DNA from: Candidatus Tectimicrobiota bacterium
GTDB lineage: Bacteria > JACPUC01
Reading direction: 5' to 3'
Assembly (NCBI GenBank): GCA_016192455.1
Contig: JACPUC010000029.1
Span: 124,001-188,000 of the forward strand
DNA length: 64,000 bases
Position numbers and translations under genes: made by a program. Every line of letters starts with the position of its first letter. Position 1 is the stretch's first letter. The notes beneath the pieces are model-generated. The model made no database searches, was not told where the DNA came from, and saw nothing but the letters and a program-made list of their open reading frames with translations. Positions 54,543 to 64,000 of the stretch are shown one piece after another.

Positions 54543-54838
54543 GCCATTCGCCATGGAGTCGGTGATCGGGACCCTGGGCCGCCGCGCCGCGCCCCGCCGA
54601 GGCTGGCCACGGAGAAGCTCTCGATGGTAGGATGGGAGACCGCGCTGCCGCAGTCCCCCCAGTCTCTCCATGCCGCGCGGAGACCGCGGGACGGTCGGCG
54701 CTGCCGCGCGCTGAGGACGCCCCCTTCGCGCCGCGCCTGCAGCCGAGACCCTCGAAGGCGGCGGCCGCTTGGTTCGGCGAACAACGCCGCGACGCACTTG
54801 GAACCCTCGTTGCCTGCTGGTGCAAGGAGAAACGAACG

Positions 54839-56410
54839 ATGCTCCTCGGTGATATCCTGGCGCGGCACAGCCGCGTCATGCCGGCGAAGGTGGCGCTCAT
54901 CTGCGGCGAAGACCGGGTGACGTGGGGGGAGCTTGAGCAGCGCACGACGAAGCTGGCCCAGGGGCTGCTGCAGGCGGGGTTCCGGCGCGGCGACAAGATT
55001 GCCATCGTGCTGCGCAACCGCATCGAATACCTCGAAACCCTCTACGCGCTTGCCAAGGCCGGCATGGTGGCGGTGATCCCCAACAGCAAGCTGAGCGCCG
55101 CCGAGCTCTGCCACCTGTTGAACGAGGCGGAGGCGCTGGCCGTGGTGACGGAGCCGAGCTTCGACGCGAAGGTCGCCGAGATGCGCCCGGGTTTTCGGAC
55201 CATCGAGACGATCATCGGCGTCGATGGCGCCGGCGGCGCGGAGCGCGAGTTGGGCGAGCTGCGGGCGCGCGCGCCGGAGGGACCGCTGCCCTATCGCCCC
55301 AACGAGAACGACCACCTGCTCCTGCCGTTCACCAGCGGCACCACCGGGCTGCCCAAGGGCGTCATCCTCACCCACAAGAACGCCTGCGCCGGGGCGATGA
55401 CCCAGCTCATCGCCAAGGGGTTCCGGGCCGATGACCTGGGCTTCCTCGTCAGCCCCCTCTTCTTCGTTGGGCCGCTCTGCGGCAGCGTCGGCGCCCTGAT
55501 GCTGCGCGGCTGCACGCTGATCCTCCTCGACTTCGAGGTGCAGCGTCTTCTCGAAACCATCCAGCGGCACGGCGCCACCACGGGGTCCCTCGTGCCGAGC
55601 ATACTGCGGCGCGTGGTGCTGCATCCCGCCGTAGGTCGGTATAACCTCGGCAGCTTGCGCTCCGTCTTCACCTCAGGGTCGCCGGTTCCCCTCGACATGC
55701 TGCGCCACGCCCTGGAGGTGCTGGGGCCGAAGATTCAAACCGGCATGGGGATGACGGAGACGAGCTCGAACGGCGCCCTGCTCACGGAGGAGGAGGTCGT
55801 CGAGGCCACCCGCCAGCGCGGACCCGACGCACCCTCCCTCTGCGCCATCGGCGCGCCGATGTGCGGCATGGAGGCGACCCTCCTGAAGGACTCGGGGGAA
55901 GAGATTCCCTTCGGCAGCGACGAGGTGGGGGAGATCGCCTTGCGCGGCGACAGCGTCATGGTGGGCTACTGGAAGCAGCCGGAGGCGACCGCGGAGGTCC
56001 TCAGCCCCGACGGCTGGCTGCGCAGCGGCGACCTTGCGTTTCGCGATGCGCGCGGCTGGCTGCACATTGTGGACCGCAAGAAAGACATCATCATCAGCGG
56101 CGGCATCAACATCACCCCGAGCGAGATCGAGATGTGCCTCGCCGAGCACGAGGCGGTGGATGAGGCCGTGGTGATCGGCGTGCCGGACGAGCGCTGGGGC
56201 GAGACAATCAAGGCCATTGTGGTGCGCAAACCCGGCGCCCACTGCACCGCCGAGGACCTCATCGACTTCTGCCGCCGGCGCCTGGCCTCCTACAAGAAAC
56301 CGACCTCCGTCGACTTCACCGATGAACTGCCGCGCAGCGCCACCGGCAAGGTGCTGAAGCGCACCCTGCGGGAACGCTACTGGGGCAGCCGCCGCGAGCA
56401 GGTGTCGTAG
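54839..56410 (+). CDS. acyl-CoA synthetase (AMP-forming; long-chain/aromatic acid type)
   Basis: A 523-residue adenylate-forming ligase: PFTSGTTGLPKGVILTH (P-loop), GMGMTETSS (A5), GEIALRGDSVMVGYWKQ, GWLRSGDLAFRD and DRKKDIIISGGINITPSEIE (A7/A8), and PRSATGKVLKR with the catalytic lysine. It resembles the broad fatty-acyl/aryl-CoA ligase group (4-coumarate-CoA ligase-like) and differs from the ligase at 45.6-47.2 kb. It activates a carboxylic acid to its CoA ester; the acid is not determinable. ATG at 54839 is preceded by AAGGAG. Monocistronic on the plus strand. Confidence 0.92.
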   Translation: MLLGDILARHSRVMPAKVALICGEDRVTWGELEQRTTKLAQGLLQAGFRRGDKIAIVLRNRIEYLETLYALAKAGMVAVIPNSKLSAAELCHLLNEAEALAVVTEPSFDAKVAEMRPGFRTIETIIGVDGAGGAERELGELRARAPEGPLPYRPNENDHLLLPFTSGTTGLPKGVILTHKNACAGAMTQLIAKGFRADDLGFLVSPLFFVGPLCGSVGALMLRGCTLILLDFEVQRLLETIQRHGATTGSLVPSILRRVVLHPAVGRYNLGSLRSVFTSGSPVPLDMLRHALEVLGPKIQTGMGMTETSSNGALLTEEEVVEATRQRGPDAPSLCAIGAPMCGMEATLLKDSGEEIPFGSDEVGEIALRGDSVMVGYWKQPEATAEVLSPDGWLRSGDLAFRDARGWLHIVDRKKDIIISGGINITPSEIEMCLAEHEAVDEAVVIGVPDERWGETIKAIVVRKPGAHCTAEDLIDFCRRRLASYKKPTSVDFTDELPRSATGKVLKRTLRERYWGSRREQVS

Positions 56411-56506: not shown

Positions 56507-57490
56507 CTACGCCGCGCTCTCCAGCTTCAGAAGCCTGGCGGCGGTCCCACCCAAGATATTGTGCAGCACGGTGGGCCCCAGGGAGAGCCCGGAGATCGCC
56601 TGGATATAGCCGCGGATGCCCTCGCCGCTGGTGATCTCCTGGGGATAGTCGGAGCCGAAGAGGAGGCGCTCCGGCGGCATGGTGAGGAGAAAACTCAGGA
56701 GCGCATTCATCCAGCCGAAGAAGCCGCCGGCGTCGAAGTAGAGACGGCTGATTCCGTCTCGGAACTGCTCCACCTTGGAGGGCTCATCGAGGCCGAAGAA
56801 GCTCTTCTCCTGGTAGCGCTCGATGCGCCCGGCGAGGGTGGTGAGGCCGCCGCCAAAGTGAGCGATGACGAGGTTCAGGCGCGGGTGGCGCTCCAGGACG
56901 CCACCCAGAATGAGCCGCACGATCGCCACCACCAGGTCGAACTCCCGGCCGATACAGCGCGCCAGATCATAGTCGTTCAAGAGGGCATAGCCTTTCGGCG
57001 CCGCGGGAGGGTGTACGAAAACCGGCACGTCGAGCTCTTCGACAAGGCTGTAGAACTCCTCGAGCTCCGGCGCGTCCAGTGAAGCCAGCCGCTCGCCGAC
57101 CACCACTTGCGAGACGATCGAAACGCCGCGCAGACCGTTGCGAACGCTCCGCTCCAATTCCCGCAGGCCCTCGCTCCCCCCTGCCGGCGGCAGATGCGCC
57201 AACCCCACCATGCGGCGCGGATAGCGCTGCTGCAGCTCAGCCAGCTCTTCATTAACCAGCCGACACATCGCCAGCGACGCATTCCAGCCGAGCGGCGACG
57301 AGAGCACGGCGGTGTCGAGACCGGCGCGCTCCATGTCCTCGAGGCGCAGCTCCATGTTGTACTGCTTCTCGCGCGCAGTGAAGCGCGGCTGGCCATCGCG
57401 GTCGTAGACGACCGCCTGCGTCTGGCCGGGTTTGAGGTGCTCGCGCAGCAGGGCGAGGGGCATGAAGTGGGAGTGGAAATCGATGCGCAT
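56507..57490 (-). CDS. amidohydrolase, ACMSD (aminocarboxymuconate-semialdehyde decarboxylase) family
   Basis: A 327-residue metal-dependent amidohydrolase-fold enzyme. The zinc site shows HxH in DFHSHFMP, VFVHPPAAP, LVIAHFGGGL and the aspartate in LLFGSDYPQE, the pattern of ACMSD and gamma-resorcylate/5-carboxyvanillate type decarboxylases. These remove a carboxyl group from aromatic or muconate semialdehyde compounds without oxygen. ATG at 57490. It shares the minus strand with the downstream cluster of aromatic-type genes but is not tightly coupled. The decarboxylase role is likely; the substrate is inferred. Confidence 0.88.
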   Translation of the reverse strand: MRIDFHSHFMPLALLREHLKPGQTQAVVYDRDGQPRFTAREKQYNMELRLEDMERAGLDTAVLSSPLGWNASLAMCRLVNEELAELQQRYPRRMVGLAHLPPAGGSEGLRELERSVRNGLRGVSIVSQVVVGERLASLDAPELEEFYSLVEELDVPVFVHPPAAPKGYALLNDYDLARCIGREFDLVVAIVRLILGGVLERHPRLNLVIAHFGGGLTTLAGRIERYQEKSFFGLDEPSKVEQFRDGISRLYFDAGGFFGWMNALLSFLLTMPPERLLFGSDYPQEITSGEGIRGYIQAISGLSLGPTVLHNILGGTAARLLKLESAA

Positions 57491-57598: not shown

Positions 57599-58291
57599 TC
57601 ACTCGCCCTCGAGGAGCACCCGCAGCGCCCGCGGGTCGAGCAGGCGCACGCGGCCCTGCGCATCTTCGATCAGGCCGCTGTCGCGCAGCACGCTGAAGGT
57701 GCGGGACAACGTCTCGCTGGTGATGGAGAGCTGCGCGGCAAGGAGCTTCTTTTTTGTCGGCAGGCGCACCGTCGCGCCCGCCGCCGCCTCGTCACCCGCG
57801 AGGCTGAGGAGGTAGGCCGCGAGGCGCGCCCGGGCGTCGCGCAGGGTGAGGTTCTCGACCATGGTGGCGAGACGCCGCGCCCATTGGGAGATGGAGGCTA
57901 GGAGGCGCAGGAGAAGTTCGGGCCGGGCTTGCAAGGTCTTGAGGAAGGGAATGCGGCGCATGAAGACGAGCCGCGCATCATCCAGCACGAACGCCGTCGC
58001 GGGGTAGTCGCCGCCGGCGAAGAGCGCCACCTCGGCGAAGGAGTCGCCGGCGCGCACGACGTGGAGTACCTGCTCGCGGCCGGCGGGGGACATCTTGGAA
58101 ATCTTCACGGTGCCGCGATCGACGATGTAGAACCCTTCACACCGGTCGCCCTCCGAAAAGAGAACGGCGCCATGCGGGTGCTCCTGCAGGAGGGCGGCGG
58201 CGGCGAGTTCCCGCAGCTCCTCTTCCCTCAAGCTGCTGAACATGGGGCAGCGGGAGAGGATGCCGACGATCTCCTCAGCCTTGGTTGCCAT
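57599..58291 (-). CDS. Crp/Fnr-family transcriptional regulator
   Basis: A 230-residue regulator. The cyclic-nucleotide-type sensor fold occupies residues 1-120 (HPHGAVLFSEGDRCEGFYIVDRGTVKIS, GDSFAEVALFAGG), then a dimerisation helix and a winged helix (LPTKKKLLAAQLSITSETLSRTFSVLRDSGLI). It has no N-terminal cysteine cluster, so it is not an oxygen-sensing FNR; it fits the DNR/Dnr-like or CooA-like subgroups that sense NO or haem ligands, or an unknown effector. It precedes the minus-strand amidohydrolase gene by 108 bases and may regulate the nearby catabolic genes (inference). Confidence 0.92.
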   Translation of the reverse strand: MATKAEEIVGILSRCPMFSSLREEELRELAAAALLQEHPHGAVLFSEGDRCEGFYIVDRGTVKISKMSPAGREQVLHVVRAGDSFAEVALFAGGDYPATAFVLDDARLVFMRRIPFLKTLQARPELLLRLLASISQWARRLATMVENLTLRDARARLAAYLLSLAGDEAAAGATVRLPTKKKLLAAQLSITSETLSRTFSVLRDSGLIEDAQGRVRLLDPRALRVLLEGE

Positions 58292-58628: not shown

Positions 58629-59798
58629 CTACTTCTTCAGATTCGTCCACTCGCCGTTCTTCACCTCCATGATGTAGATTTCCTTCGCCATGTCGCCGTT
58701 CGGCTGCATGCTGCTCATGCCGGACACGCCCTTGTAATCCTTCAGGTTCGTCCACCAGTCACGAATCTTGGCGCGATCCTCGGCCAGCTTGGCGGGGTCG
58801 TTCGTCACGCCGTTCTTCTCGATCGCATCCTTCATGATGAAGAGGTTGTCGTAGATGTTGGCCGAGTAGTGCGGCGGCACCTTGCCCGCGGCTCTCTCCT
58901 TGTAACGCTTCACGAAGGACTGGACGCGCGGGTCCGGGTTGTCCGGCCAGAAGGATTGGGCGGCCATGGTCCCCTCCACCGCCGCCTTGCCAAGCCGCGT
59001 ATAGGCCGGGGAGATCGAGCCGATGCCGACGTAGAGCGGCACCTTGACCTCGATGCGGCGCAGCTCCCGCGCCATGTTCGAGGCCTCGTAGTGCAGCGCC
59101 GGCATCACTACTCCCTCGGCGTTTGACGCCTTGATGGCGACTCCTTGAGGGGAGAAATCGAGGTTGCCGGTCTGGAAGGTCTGCTGCGTCACGACCTCGA
59201 CGCCGTACTTCTTGAAGATACCAGGGAAGACCGTTGTCGCCTCGGTCTTGGAGAGGAAATCCGCGCTGTCATAGGCCATCGCCAGCCGCTTGATGTTGTA
59301 GCGCTCGATCCAGGACTTGAAGGCTGGTTCGTGGAGACGCTCGCTGGTCAGGACGTTGCGGAAGGTCCAGGGGCGATTGCGCTCGGTGATGCCCGGCGCG
59401 GCCGAGGCGGAGGAGACGGCCACGATGCCGATGCGGTTGGCCACCGGGAAGGCGACCTCGCAGAGGGCGCTGATGTACGGACCGAGGACGCCCAGCACCT
59501 TGTCGCTGTTGGCCACGCGACGCATGAGGTTGATCGCCTGCTCCTGGCGGCTGGCGTCATCGTACTTGAAGATCTTCAGGGGCAACCCGCCGATGCCGCC
59601 GGCGGCGTTGATATCCTCCATGGCGAGCTCGACGGCGATCTCGTTATCCTTGCCGAGCGGCGAGCCCCAACCGGTGAACGGGTTTATGTAGCCGATCTTG
59701 ACCTCCGTGCCCATCAGCTTGGCGGCGGCGCTGTGAGCGCTCATCATCAGAGCGACGACGGCAAGGATCACCACCATGAAACGGAACTTCTGCTGCAT
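58629..59798 (-). CDS. ABC transporter substrate-binding protein, LivK-type, second copy
   Basis: A 389-residue periplasmic binding protein. Signal peptide residues 1-26 (FMVVILAVVALMMSAHSAAA). The mature part starts EVKIGYINPFTGWGSPLGKD and includes INAAGGIGGLPLKIFKYDDAS, the same stretch as in the 18.7 kb paralogue, plus SASAAPGITERNRPWTFRNV. ATG at 59796-59798 follows AGGAGGA. No permease or ATPase genes flank it. It belongs to the family importing branched-chain amino acids, urea, or aromatic carboxylates; the surrounding catabolic genes favour an aromatic or amino-acid-like ligand. A 12-base inverted repeat follows the stop. Confidence 0.93.
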   Translation of the reverse strand: MQQKFRFMVVILAVVALMMSAHSAAAKLMGTEVKIGYINPFTGWGSPLGKDNEIAVELAMEDINAAGGIGGLPLKIFKYDDASRQEQAINLMRRVANSDKVLGVLGPYISALCEVAFPVANRIGIVAVSSASAAPGITERNRPWTFRNVLTSERLHEPAFKSWIERYNIKRLAMAYDSADFLSKTEATTVFPGIFKKYGVEVVTQQTFQTGNLDFSPQGVAIKASNAEGVVMPALHYEASNMARELRRIEVKVPLYVGIGSISPAYTRLGKAAVEGTMAAQSFWPDNPDPRVQSFVKRYKERAAGKVPPHYSANIYDNLFIMKDAIEKNGVTNDPAKLAEDRAKIRDWWTNLKDYKGVSGMSSMQPNGDMAKEIYIMEVKNGEWTNLKK

Positions 59799-60274
59799 CT
59801 GGTTTCCTCCTGCTGCAGAGCTCAAGAATGCGACGTCCGCTGCGGCTGCGGAACGTTCTCGCAGACCATCGGACTCGCTGCCGAGGCGCCTTGCAACCGC
59901 TCGCCGCGCGCGTTCTCCGCGAAGGTGGCGCGAACAGAGCACGGCGAGCATACCACGCTTTCAGGCTCTAGACTAGCCGCGGCCCGCCGACCACGCGTCG
60001 GCAGCTCCAGGATGCCATGGTCGAGGTCGCCAGGCGCGCCTCTTGCCACGCCAGCGGCTCTCTCCCAACCGCGCATCCCTTCGTTCGCCGCGCCGGCCGC
60101 TCCCTTCGAGCGCGCGACCCCGGCGCAGGAAACGCTGCGCCTCTTCACTATACAGTATCTTTGTCAACGTGGGAATCGTGGAGGGACGGCAACGCGGCGG
60201 GGAGCGCGCCGCGGAGGCATCTCCACCGGAGACAGACCTGGGCGGCAGTTTCCCGCCGTGGGGAAGTGCTGTCC

Positions 60275-61297
60275 CTACGACGCATCGCGGCGAGAGGGCT
60301 GCGCCTCGTCGATCACGAGCCTGCCTGCATCAAGCACCTGGCAGCCGTCCAGCCAGAGCGAGCAGCGCCGCATCGGCATGTCGAGGTGGCAGGGGGTATG
60401 GCGGCTGCCGCCGGCATCGGTGTTGGGTCCCGTGGAGAACTGGAAGTTGCCGAGGAAGGAGCGGGAGTCCATGCCGCGCGTCGTCGGCTCCAGATTGAGG
60501 GCGTTCCAGACGGCGCGCTCGTCGAGCCCCCAGCCGAGGTGGGAGACGGCGTAGCCTTCCGGGTCGTTCCAGCTTCGCAGGTAGGCGTCGAGGAGCTCGG
60601 CGTCGGGCCCGCCCTCGATGGCGCGGAGGTACCCTTTCTCGATCCGCAGGCTGACGGGGTGCGCGAGGTAGCGCCGCAGCGGCCAGACGAGGTCGCCGGT
60701 GTCGAGGACGACCGTGCCTTCGGCGTCGCCTTCATTCGGCCAGGTGTAGAGGAAGGTGGAGGGCCAGTGATCCCAGCGCCCCGGCTGATCGGTGTAGCCG
60801 TACTGCGTAATGACCGGATACTGGGTGATGGCGGCGCGGAAATCGGTGCCCGCCTCCGAGGCGAGGCGCAGCTCCTTCGCCTGCCGCAAGAGTTCCGCGC
60901 CTTGCTCCACGCGGCGCCGCTGCCGGGGGGTCGGGAAGAGGCGGCTGAGGATTTCGGGCGGCTCAAGGATGAGGAGCATGCGCGCGCCGGCCTGTAAAAT
61001 CTCCACTTGCTCGGGCGAGTGCAGGATGAAGTGGTGATCGATGACCATATCGGCCCGTTTCAGCGTCTCGACGACGAGGGGAAGATGGGCGAGGGGGCGG
61101 CCGGGAAGCGCCCCGCCTCCCTCCGGCAGGACCACCTGGAAGACGCGCGCCCCGAGCGCTTGCGCCGCGGTCAGGGAGGCCTCGACGTAGGCCGGGTTGC
61201 TGCGGGGCCCGGCAACCACCACCACGGACTCCTCCAGCCGCATCCGGCAGAGCTCGAACTCCGCCTGGAACAGGCGATGGAGCTGCTCTTGATTCAT
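60275..61297 (-). CDS. NicX-like dioxygenase (2,5-dihydroxypyridine 5,6-dioxygenase / M29-fold family)
   Basis: A 340-residue protein of the leucyl aminopeptidase (M29)-like fold that includes 2,5-dihydroxypyridine dioxygenase (NicX). Visible family features: VVVVAGPRSNPAYVEAS near the start, MVIDHHFILHSPEQV, VSHLGWGLDERAVW and GSRHTPCHLDMPMR; the histidines and aspartate of the last two stretches match the iron ligands reported for NicX (His...His-x-Asp). NicX opens the ring of 2,5-dihydroxypyridine in nicotinate breakdown. ATG at 61297 follows GGAGG. It lies 27 bases after a diiron-fold gene on the same strand. M29 peptidase activity is the alternative. Confidence 0.8.
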   Translation of the reverse strand: MNQEQLHRLFQAEFELCRMRLEESVVVVAGPRSNPAYVEASLTAAQALGARVFQVVLPEGGGALPGRPLAHLPLVVETLKRADMVIDHHFILHSPEQVEILQAGARMLLILEPPEILSRLFPTPRQRRRVEQGAELLRQAKELRLASEAGTDFRAAITQYPVITQYGYTDQPGRWDHWPSTFLYTWPNEGDAEGTVVLDTGDLVWPLRRYLAHPVSLRIEKGYLRAIEGGPDAELLDAYLRSWNDPEGYAVSHLGWGLDERAVWNALNLEPTTRGMDSRSFLGNFQFSTGPNTDAGGSRHTPCHLDMPMRRCSLWLDGCQVLDAGRLVIDEAQPSRRDAS

Positions 61298-61324
61298 GCA
61301 CCCTCCGGCGTCGCGGCGGCCCCT

Positions 61325-61987
61325 TCACAAGCGGGTCGCGGGCTCCGCGGCGGCATGCTCCGCGGCGAGGCGGTTGAACGCCTGGCGCGAGCGCTCGTGC
61401 AGATCGAGCACCTTGAACACGGTCCGGCGCACGCGCTGCTGGCTCGCCGCATCGTTCGCAAAGAGCTGGATGGCTGTCCGCCCCAGCCTCACATGGAACT
61501 CCTCGTCAGGATGGAACTCCTCGAAGAGGTCCTTCCACGCGCCGCCGAGGCGATGCCGGTAGTGCTTCTGGTTCTCGATGGCCACGAGCTCGCTGGCGAA
61601 GTTGTGGCCGGACAGCCGATCCAGGAAATCGCCCAGCTCCTCGATGTAGCGGTAGACGTTCCGCCACTCCGCATAGGGCGCGTAGTCCTCCTGGTACTCC
61701 CCTTCCGTCTGCAGGAGGCTGCGGATGCGCAGGAAGTGCTTCGCCTCGTCGGCCACCTGGCGGGCCACCCCCATGCGCAGGTTCGTGTCGGGAATGGTCT
61801 CCAGCCAGGAGCCGAGCACCGGCACCGACCACGCCTCGGTCCAGCAGGAGCGGCGCAGGCGCTCATACTTCTCCCACGCCTGCGGCGCCTGGTCCGGCGT
61901 CAGACGCTGCGCATCACGCTGACGCCATCCTGCCATGCGTTCCAGGCATTCCTCTTCAAGCTGCCGGAGGAACTCGGTGCCGTTCAT
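61325..61987 (-). CDS. TenA/haem-oxygenase-fold (diiron) protein 1
   Basis: A 220-residue all-helical protein. It begins NGTEFLRQLEEECLERMAGW and contains two acidic-histidine helices (VADEAKHFLRIRSLL and HPDEEFHVRLGRTAI), the placement of metal ligands in ferritin-like or haem-oxygenase-like diiron enzymes. It resembles its neighbour (MTGNEFASEMEEK) in the start and in both ligand helices. Members of the HDO family oxidise C-N or C-C bonds using iron and oxygen. The exact reaction is unknown. ATG at 61987. Followed by the NicX-like gene after 27 bases. Confidence 0.65.
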   Translation of the reverse strand: MNGTEFLRQLEEECLERMAGWRQRDAQRLTPDQAPQAWEKYERLRRSCWTEAWSVPVLGSWLETIPDTNLRMGVARQVADEAKHFLRIRSLLQTEGEYQEDYAPYAEWRNVYRYIEELGDFLDRLSGHNFASELVAIENQKHYRHRLGGAWKDLFEEFHPDEEFHVRLGRTAIQLFANDAASQQRVRRTVFKVLDLHERSRQAFNRLAAEHAAAEPATRL

Positions 61988-62205
61988 ACGAGCCTCTCTT
62001 TCTCATCGCTGCTTCACCGCGCAGGGTGAAGCGAGGGGGAAGAAACCTCAGCGCGCAAGGGAATCCCACAGACCGGCGGCGGCGCTCCTCCCTGCCGCGC
62101 GCGGCCGCGCGCGGCGGTTGATGCCTGCACGCCAGCAGCCTCTGATGCAACCTGACCGGCTCCTCGTCAAATCCCGCCCAGGCTGCCCCCGCCCAGGCTA
62201 CCTGC

Positions 62206-62862
62206 TCAGCTTGTGCGGGGCGCCGGCAAGCCCAGGCGTTCATTCAGCTCGCGCATCGCGTCGACCGAGAGTTTCTGCTGCAAGGCGGAGATGTCCCGCA
62301 AGCGCTGCTGAACCTCCGGTGTGGTGGCGTACTTCTCCAGGATGGCGCGCCCGAACTCGTGGTGCTCCTCTTCGTCTTCAATCTGGGGAGCGGCGATGTC
62401 CCGCAGATGGGGATCGGCGCCGTTCGCCGCCAGCTTGAAGAAGAGCACGGCCTTCGGCTCGCCGCCGTAGTTCTCCGCGGCAATTTTCTCCAGCGCCGTG
62501 GGGGCATTCTCCTGGTTATCGAAGTAGCGCTTCCAGGAGGGGACCGGCGTGTAGGCCGCGGGGTCGAAGTCCACCCCCAACTCCAGGAGCTTGCGCCGCT
62601 CGATCTCGTAGTGGCTCGCCTCCTCATGGCATTGCTCGGCCAGCCCCAGCTTCAGGTCCCACTGCTGCATGGGCGTGTTGAGGAAGTGCTTGGCGTTGTG
62701 CAGGCAGCTCCGCCACTCCGCGTAGGCGTAATGCTTCAGCACCTCGATGAGCTGCTGGCGCGGCCACACCTTGTTGGCCCAGGCTTCGCTCAATGGACGC
62801 GCCGCCTCGAGCAAGGCCGCCACCTTCTCCTCCATCTCCGACGCAAACTCGTTGCCAGTCAT
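62206..62862 (-). CDS. TenA/haem-oxygenase-fold (diiron) protein 2
   Basis: A 218-residue helical protein, related to the 61.3-62.0 kb gene. The helix pattern ANKVWPRQQLIEVLKHYAYAEW is like TenA/PqqC proteins; LAEQCHEEASHYEIERRKLL and QIEDEEEHHEFGRAIL carry paired Glu/His residues typical of haem-oxygenase-like diiron oxidases. ATG at 62862 follows GGGGGG. The pair may form a heteromer or have specialised after duplication. The neighbouring NicX-like gene and molybdoenzyme suggest a role in ring oxidation (inference). Confidence 0.68.
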   Translation of the reverse strand: MTGNEFASEMEEKVAALLEAARPLSEAWANKVWPRQQLIEVLKHYAYAEWRSCLHNAKHFLNTPMQQWDLKLGLAEQCHEEASHYEIERRKLLELGVDFDPAAYTPVPSWKRYFDNQENAPTALEKIAAENYGGEPKAVLFFKLAANGADPHLRDIAAPQIEDEEEHHEFGRAILEKYATTPEVQQRLRDISALQQKLSVDAMRELNERLGLPAPRTS

Positions 62863-63026
62863 GCTGGACCCCCCATGAACGTGTCACGAGCAGAGGCGAG
62901 CGCCTGCGGCTGGCGTGCCCGCTCAAGGAGGCTCGGAGTGCCAGCCATTGGCGCCCCCCCGGCTCCTCGCGGCGCCGGCTCGCAGGCATGGCTTAACGCG
63001 AGAAGCAAGGACCGGCCTGCATCTCC

Positions 63027-64000
63027 TCACGCCGCTTCCGCCAGGTTCTCCCTCGCCTCCTTGATTGCCCGCAGGATGCCCTCCGGCGTCAGAGGAGAGG
63101 AGCGCAGGCGGACGCCGAAGGGTGCCAGGGCATCCTCCACGGCCCCGAGGATGGCGCCGCACGCCCCGATCGTGCCTCCCTCCCCCGCCCCCTTCACCCC
63201 AAGCGGGCTGAGCGGCGACGGGGTCTCTTGGTGCAGGATGGCGACCGAGGGCACCTCGCACGCCGAGGGCATGGTGAAGTCCATCAGGCTGGCGGAGAGA
63301 TATTGCCCCTGTTCGTCGTAGACCATGCGCTCGTAGAGCGTCTCGCCGATGCCGTGCGCGATGCCCCCCATGACTTGCCCCTCGACGATCATCGGGTTCA
63401 GCATCACGCCGCAGTCGTGGACGGCGGCGTAGCGCAGCACGCGCACCTCCCCGCTTCCGGCATCAACCTCCACCACCGCCGCCTGCGCGCCGCTCGCCCA
63501 CGCCTCGTCCTGCGGCTCGTAGAAGGCTGTCTCCTCAAGCCCCGCCTGGGCGCGCACCAGACTCTCGATGCTCACCGAGCGCTGCGGGCTGCCGCGCACC
63601 CTGAAGCGCCGCTCGGTGAAGCGCTCCCGGGGGCGCGGATGCCTGGCGACGCCGTCCTCCTGGATCAGCTCCAGGTCCTCCGGGCGCGCCTCGAGCTGCG
63701 CCGCCGCCAGCTCGCCCAGCCGTCGCATAAGCTGCCGGCAGGCGAAGCTCGTGGCCGTGGCGGCGACGGTTGCAATACGGCTGGCGTAGGCGCCGGCCCC
63801 CTTGCTGATCATCGCCGTATCCCCGGCGACCACCGTGACGTCCTCGAACGGCATGTCGAGTTCGGCCGCGCAGACCTGGGCGAGGGTGGTGAGGGAACCC
63901 TGCCCCTGCGTCGCCGCGCCGGTGAAGACCGTGGCCTTGCCGGCGCTGTCGAGGACGAGGCGGGCGCCCTCATACGGGCCCATGCCGGTGGCTTCGACGC
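63027..64000 (-). CDS. molybdenum hydroxylase large subunit, 3' part (cut by window end)
   Basis: The C-terminal 324 residues of a second xanthine dehydrogenase/CO dehydrogenase-family large subunit. The frame is open to the window end (VEATGMGPYEGARL), so the gene starts beyond 64000. Visible motifs are VFTGAATQGQGSLTTLAQ, GDTAMISKGAGAYASR and GVKGAGEGGTIGA, with the catalytic glutamate. It differs from the 4.6-7.0 kb enzyme. Its partners (FAD and Fe-S subunits) must lie outside the window. Being just upstream of the diiron-fold and NicX-like genes on one strand, it may hydroxylate the same heteroaromatic ring. Confidence 0.88.
   Translation of the reverse strand, partial: VEATGMGPYEGARLVLDSAGKATVFTGAATQGQGSLTTLAQVCAAELDMPFEDVTVVAGDTAMISKGAGAYASRIATVAATATSFACRQLMRRLGELAAAQLEARPEDLELIQEDGVARHPRPRERFTERRFRVRGSPQRSVSIESLVRAQAGLEETAFYEPQDEAWASGAQAAVVEVDAGSGEVRVLRYAAVHDCGVMLNPMIVEGQVMGGIAHGIGETLYERMVYDEQGQYLSASLMDFTMPSACEVPSVAILHQETPSPLSPLGVKGAGEGGTIGACGAILGAVEDALAPFGVRLRSSPLTPEGILRAIKEARENLAEAA

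Follow-up and report, generated by a model that had tools for sequence, protein, structure and literature searches.

Two ferritin-like diiron proteins encoded between a molybdenum hydroxylase subunit and a NicX-family dioxygenase: a candidate cluster for aromatic-ring catabolism in a Candidatus Tectimicrobiota bacterium

The gene cluster

The window analyzed here, 64,000 nucleotides from a Candidatus Tectimicrobiota bacterium (contig C22, positions 124001-188000, of a 4.46 Mb assembly in 31 contigs, 88% complete), ends in four consecutive open reading frames (ORFs) on the minus strand. They encode the large subunit of a molybdenum hydroxylase (MoL), two ferritin-like diiron-carboxylate proteins (FerA and FerB), and a relative of the ring-cleaving dioxygenase NicX (Table 1). 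A preliminary description, made from the sequence alone, had listed the same four genes, and they are indeed adjacent, the first being cut by the end of the window. The cluster may serve the catabolism of an aromatic ring, with the diiron pair standing in for the flavin hydroxylase that usually acts ahead of NicX-type cleavage, a reading that we offer tentatively, as possible if short of probable. FerB is encoded 27 bp upstream of the NicX relative; the gaps between FerA and FerB and between MoL and FerA are 218 bp and 164 bp, so tight spacing is limited to FerB and NicX. No terminator-like site was found on the gene strand of the cluster, the total count being below that in shuffled sequence.

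A NicX-family ring-cleavage dioxygenase

Compared by phmmer with solved structures, the product of the ring-opening gene matches Pseudomonas putida NicX (7cn3) over 335 residues; identity, 47%, and the state of individual residues were read from our own alignment with 80 relatives. In NicX, iron is bound by H265, S302, H318 and D320, while the substrate is contacted by E177 (at N1 and O1), H189, H105 and L104 (PMC7910607). All four iron ligands are present in the window protein, as they are in 80 of 80 relatives, and the contacts His189, Leu104 and His105 are kept; Glu177 has become Gln, and Glu308 has become Asp. The conserved residues and the overall similarity indicate a true NicX relative, a member of the 2,5-dihydroxypyridine dioxygenase family, in agreement with the preliminary description. 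NicX has distant homologs among the metallo-aminopeptidases (PMC7356986), but the proposition that the window protein is an M29-type metallopeptidase, in a cluster unrelated to ring cleavage, is highly improbable and already refuted by sequence: the protein has no Pfam match, to Peptidase_M29 (PF02073) or otherwise, its identity to NicX is high with the mononuclear iron site intact, and no M29 match occurs anywhere in this genome, while control genomes did give matches.

The replacement of Glu177 is rare. Gln177 occurs in just three of the 80 NicX relatives, from Cupriavidus (locus L013), Chloroflexi (L020) and Acidimicrobiaceae (L082). The Cupriavidus protein, at 53% identity, is the nearest relative of the window enzyme, and the Gln177 rows are long and early-branching in a tree of the relatives, which leaves their grouping unsure. 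Rather than unsubstituted 2,5-dihydroxypyridine, the window enzyme might open another ring, be it a dihydroxypyridine with substituents or a hydroquinone-like ring that is not a pyridine, with FerA and FerB acting either on this compound or on the open chain formed from it; we consider this a real but doubtful possibility. In Cupriavidus necator A5-1 (L013:11060-13576), the Gln177-type NicX is followed by a lyase of the PEP-mutase/isocitrate-lyase type and an aconitase-family hydratase, which suggest a substituted (e.g. methylated) dicarboxylate product. At L020, the only other locus that lacks all of NicD, NicE and NicF, searches did not find NicC either, a homolog of the window's amidohydrolase flanks the Gln177-type NicX, and Rieske and LigAB-like genes were noted by inspection of translated starts only, with no profile search. 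However, L013 also carries homologs of NicC, NicD and NicF together with CoxMSL, and L082 carries NicD and NicF, so Gln177 would fit ordinary pyridine catabolism too; reports of an assay on any enzyme with Gln177 were not found.

FerA and FerB, two diiron proteins

FerA and FerB are homologous (26% identity over 121 aa, E 4e-10), as the preliminary description had proposed. In an alignment of 11 members, taken from two plasmids and six genomes (this one and five others of the sampled set), the distance between the two is about the same as that from either to relatives elsewhere, and the pair therefore looks like an old divergence rather than a recent duplication. Residues E49, E81, H84, E135, E164 and H167 (FerA numbering) are invariant across all 11 relatives and constitute an E, ExxH, E, ExxH diiron-carboxylate set, complete in both FerA and FerB.

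The two proteins had been described as members of the TenA/heme-oxygenase fold, which is probably wrong: TenA gives no Pfam match, and Haem_oxygenas_2 matches weakly in two of the 11 members (best 0.0022). They look instead like members of the ferritin-like superfamily, to judge from profile comparisons. Neither scores above any Pfam cut-off, FerA reaching 20.1 bits against MiaE_2 (cut-off 25.2) and 16.7 against Ferritin (cut-off 24.5), both of the ferritin clan, but a profile of the family matches mainly DUF455, MiaE_2, Ferritin and Rubrerythrin and, among solved structures, finds PaaA best (9e-6); FerB alone matches PaaA weakly (0.075). No Pfam or NCBIfam match connects FerA or FerB with the hydroxylase families of multi-component soluble diiron monooxygenases of the HpdABCDE type. 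Because AlphaFold models built from two-row alignments were too poor (pLDDT 45.5 for FerA, 49.7 for FerB), both the fold and the metal ligands are judged from sequence; the FerA model aligns to rubrerythrin over about 61 residues only (Z 8), and alignments of the FerB model to PqqC, TenA and HO (Z about 4-5) are given no weight at pLDDT 50.

No ortholog of FerA was found in 386 sampled genomes, where relatives reach about 27-37% identity, and a scan of genome contigs returned no FerA relatives. The nearest relatives elsewhere are mostly solitary genes lacking a catabolic context. Ferritin-like paralogs beyond FerA and FerB number at least four in this genome, and most have no molybdenum hydroxylase or NicX partner; one further case of a ferritin-like gene near a molybdenum hydroxylase, about 4 kb apart, lies on contig C23, and with about 32 molybdenum hydroxylase loci in the genome the association is not clearly above chance. 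This distribution, together with the sub-threshold Pfam scores, would fit a reading in which FerA and FerB are accessory proteins, for iron or peroxide handling or as an unrelated oxidase, that only sit near the dioxygenase while another, unlinked enzyme hydroxylates the ring. We regard that explanation as unlikely, since two diverged Fer proteins stand in tandem between two catabolic genes, the second of them only 27 bp from NicX, and the diiron signature resembles oxygenases such as PaaA no less than it does storage ferritins.

When plasmids were searched with FerA and with FerB, the same two relatives came up, from Priestia and Staphylococcus. The FerB-related proteins (L121:7857-8498 and L122:6043-6693, respectively) are encoded in a conserved cluster alongside ketoacyl synthases, methyltransferases and an AMP-binding enzyme, joined in Staphylococcus by a salicylate synthase; these clusters look biosynthetic, not catabolic.

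The molybdenum hydroxylase large subunit

The DNA beyond position 64000, obtained from the assembly, completes MoL as a single ORF of 848 codons (L001:7027-9573) that extends up to C22:189573. Translation is likely to start near C22:189390, at a Met about 60 residues into the ORF, since similarity to homologs begins near residue 55-71. The preliminary assignment to the xanthine dehydrogenase type is borne out: together with the MoCoBD_2 match, the retained catalytic-Glu motif KGAGEGG identifies a large subunit of the xanthine dehydrogenase/CO dehydrogenase (XDH/CODH) family. The full-length protein is equally near CO dehydrogenase CoxL (8uem, 2e-147) and quinoline 2-oxidoreductase (1t3q, 3e-147). 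The active-site Cys loop of form I CoxL, CSFR, is not present, and RGAGRPP occupies its place. Genes for FeS and FAD subunits are not found beside MoL, the only CoxS/CoxM matches in the stretch accompanying a different large subunit at about 3-6 kb of the window; several of MoL's nearest paralogs in the genome likewise stand alone, with no linked FeS or FAD subunits. Genome-wide, the xanthine dehydrogenase-family large subunits occupy about 32 separate loci (e.g. on contigs C1, C2, C22, C23, C30 and C31). The nearest paralog of MoL, 65% identical and encoded at L118:2412-6240 (C30), adjoins a gene for a UbiD-family decarboxylase, which may point to a similar route for a ring acid.

Comparison with other NicX loci

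For comparison, 80 NicX loci were collected from a public genome collection; none of the other genomes compared belongs to the phylum of the source bacterium, and a search for NicX among the 386 sampled genomes gave two remote matches only. NicD is carried at 77 of the 80 loci, NicF at 74, NicE at 65, NicC at 57, a CoxS-like subunit at 48, and a large subunit strongly similar to MoL, counted within 10 kb, at 26. The pairing of a molybdenum hydroxylase with NicX is thus a known one, as the preliminary description had held. Around the window's cluster, 116 kb (the window with loci L001-L003 and L136) yielded no NicC, and across the genome the flavoprotein family FAD_binding_3 gave a single sizeable match, a weak one of 62 bits; nothing resembling a NicC hydroxylase turned up genome-wide.

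A different pattern was seen in eight of the comparison loci (L029, L031, L044, L056, L058, L068, L083 and L086), actinobacterial NicX clusters that encode an HD-like protein of about 200-230 aa (e.g. L031, 7777-8391, plus strand; L044, 7682-8383, plus strand). All eight clusters have a strongly matching molybdenum subunit of the CoxL type and lack NicC, and none of the 57 NicC-bearing loci encodes such a protein. Its pattern, H...HD...H...H...D, was seen by eye, and no Pfam match was obtained. This protein could be another replacement for NicC.

A proposed route for ring catabolism

To go by the degradation of nicotinate, picolinate and 2-hydroxypyridine, a NicX-type enzyme would need a ring hydroxylated twice, one oxygen coming from a molybdenum hydroxylase and the other from a flavin or diiron monooxygenase. 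Because no NicC-like enzyme was found, the second hydroxylation is most readily ascribed, among local proteins, to FerA and FerB. In the route that we propose, the substrate is most likely a pyridine, carboxylated or otherwise substituted. MoL would first introduce a hydroxyl group, its oxygen coming from water, beside the ring nitrogen; FerA and FerB, presumably acting jointly and with O2, would then hydroxylate the ring para to the first hydroxyl, substituting for the flavin enzyme NicC; and the NicX-family enzyme, again with O2, would cleave the resulting 2,5-dihydroxylated ring. Farther downstream, the ACMSD-like amidohydrolase might remove the carboxyl group of a ring acid, much as PicC does in the picolinate pathway.

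Several observations favor this route. The NicX relative and both Fer proteins keep their complete sets of iron ligands. MoL is as near quinoline 2-oxidoreductase as CoxL, with the catalytic Glu kept and the CODH Cys loop absent, and strongly similar subunits lie near NicX at 26 of the 80 loci; the FerB gene directly precedes that of NicX, in the same orientation; PaaA, the closest match of the Fer family among solved structures, is a diiron aromatic-ring epoxidase; and NicC, present at most NicX loci, is missing from this one. In a more specific version, FerA and FerB would be the two subunits of a minimal, ferritin-like diiron hydroxylase for pyridine-type rings, a non-homologous replacement of NicC that feeds a Gln177-type NicX accepting a substituted ring; taken as a whole this is rather unlikely. 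Should it hold, the hydroxylases of pyridine rings would include small ferritin-like diiron proteins, a compact enzyme pair, alongside the flavin enzymes and the multi-component diiron monooxygenases. A mostly uncharacterized family of ferritin-like proteins of about 219 aa, represented in several sampled genomes, would gain its first substrate class, and the cluster would show how a bacterium rich in molybdenum hydroxylases could degrade N-heteroaromatics in the absence of NicC.

A number of results weigh against a diiron pair that hydroxylates the ring ahead of NicX. The residue replaced by Gln177 is the one that contacts both N1 and O1 of the ring in NicX. A ferritin-like neighbor was found, with four different queries, at none of the 80 NicX loci, so a single genome is the sole source of the association of Fer proteins with NicX; the conserved co-occurrence of all four families that the preliminary description had suggested looking for did not appear. 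The solitary state of most FerA relatives, the separation of MoL from any FeS or FAD subunit gene, and gaps of 164 and 218 bp that make a single operon less convincing point the same way. Searches of the surrounding 116 kb did not find NicD, NicE or NicF, and their best candidates genome-wide are weak (NicD 38% over 159 aa, NicE 29%, NicF 39%). The genome-wide query with Cupriavidus NicC gave no match in a search that had no positive control, and all of these absences are provisional because the assembly is incomplete. Moreover, 13 of the 26 NicX loci with a strong MoL match also have no NicC nearby, and its absence is therefore not peculiar to this genome. Gln177 and the lack at the locus of genes for the 2,5-dihydroxypyridine cleavage product (NicD, NicF, NicE) also make an N-heteroaromatic substrate less certain than the preliminary description claimed, while its outline of such a route remains plausible.

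The nearest counterparts each resemble the proposed route in part. The nicotinate pathway (NicAB, NicC, NicX, NicD, NicE, NicF) shares molybdenum hydroxylation and NicX cleavage, but the window locus lacks NicC, NicD, NicE and NicF, and its molybdenum subunit is of the CoxL/Qor type. Among the dioxygenases NicX, HpdF and PicD, the window enzyme is like NicX in its iron ligands and in L104, H105 and H189; it differs in Gln177 and Asp308 and in having no genes for NicC, NicD, NicE or NicF nearby. PaaA and PaaC of phenylacetyl-CoA epoxidase are ferritin-like diiron proteins whose paired action is on an aromatic ring, PaaC being the non-catalytic partner. They offer a related ferritin-like pair, and PaaA is the best solved match, but the relationship is very distant, and FerA and FerB, unlike PaaC, both keep all ligands. 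HpdABCDE, as cited in two reports, is described as a multi-component, non-heme diiron 2-hydroxypyridine 5-monooxygenase paired with HpdF (PMC8313251, PMC7356986). It offers a precedent for supplying a NicX-type dioxygenase by means of a diiron hydroxylase, although FerA and FerB are small and match no multi-component family. No paper tying ferritin-like diiron proteins to the degradation of hydroxynicotinate or pyridine was found in a collection of open-access papers.

In the picolinate (pic) pathway, the molybdenum dehydrogenase PicA, the monooxygenase PicB, the amidohydrolase decarboxylase PicC and the dioxygenase PicD act together (PMC10142695). The window likewise brings a molybdenum hydroxylase, a NicX-type dioxygenase and an amidohydrolase-2 protein within about 8 kb. 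It differs in having diiron proteins instead and in lacking picE-, picF- and picG-like genes nearby, as sought with NicD, NicF and NicE queries; picB-like genes were not searched by sequence. The amidohydrolase itself is only 28% identical to its homolog at L047 and is nearer ACMSD. Among solved structures it matches ACMSD at 2e-22 and gamma-resorcylate decarboxylase at 1e-16, and it is possibly a ring-acid decarboxylase comparable to PicC.

Neighboring genes

Table 1. Genes of the cluster and adjoining genes in the window.
Feature	Position	Strand	Evidence
MoL, molybdenum hydroxylase large (MoCo-binding) subunit, C-terminal part	63027..64000 (ORF fragment 63027-63998)	-	MoCoBD_2, E 3e-69
FerA, 218-aa ferritin-like diiron-carboxylate protein	62206..62862	-	Six invariant ligands; weak MiaE_2/Ferritin Pfam matches
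FerB, 220-aa ferritin-like diiron-carboxylate protein, distant FerA paralog	61325..61987	-	Same six ligand columns
NicX-family non-heme Fe(II) ring-cleavage dioxygenase, 340 aa, Glu177 to Gln	60275..61297	-	7cn3, E 6e-102
HAAT-type ABC transporter substrate-binding protein, possible uptake partner	58629..59951	-	Peripla_BP_6, E 2e-53; HAAT-family solved structures, 6e-28
Crp/Fnr-family regulator, possible regulator of the cluster	57599..58291	-	cNMP_binding and HTH_Crp_2
Amidohydrolase-2 family protein, ACMSD/gamma-resorcylate decarboxylase-like	56507..57490	-	Amidohydro_2, E 6e-31
Acyl-CoA synthetase, opposite strand	54632..56410	+	AMP-binding, E 7e-75

Position suggests that the HAAT-type substrate-binding protein is a possible member of the cluster and that the Crp/Fnr-family protein possibly regulates it; the acyl-CoA synthetase probably lies outside the catabolic unit. 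Just past window position 64000 (L001:9685-19998), an MtrB/PioB-like outer-membrane porin, several multiheme c-type cytochromes and a cytochrome b are encoded. This upstream set of porin and cytochromes resembles an extracellular electron-transfer module and is probably separate from the ring-cleavage genes.

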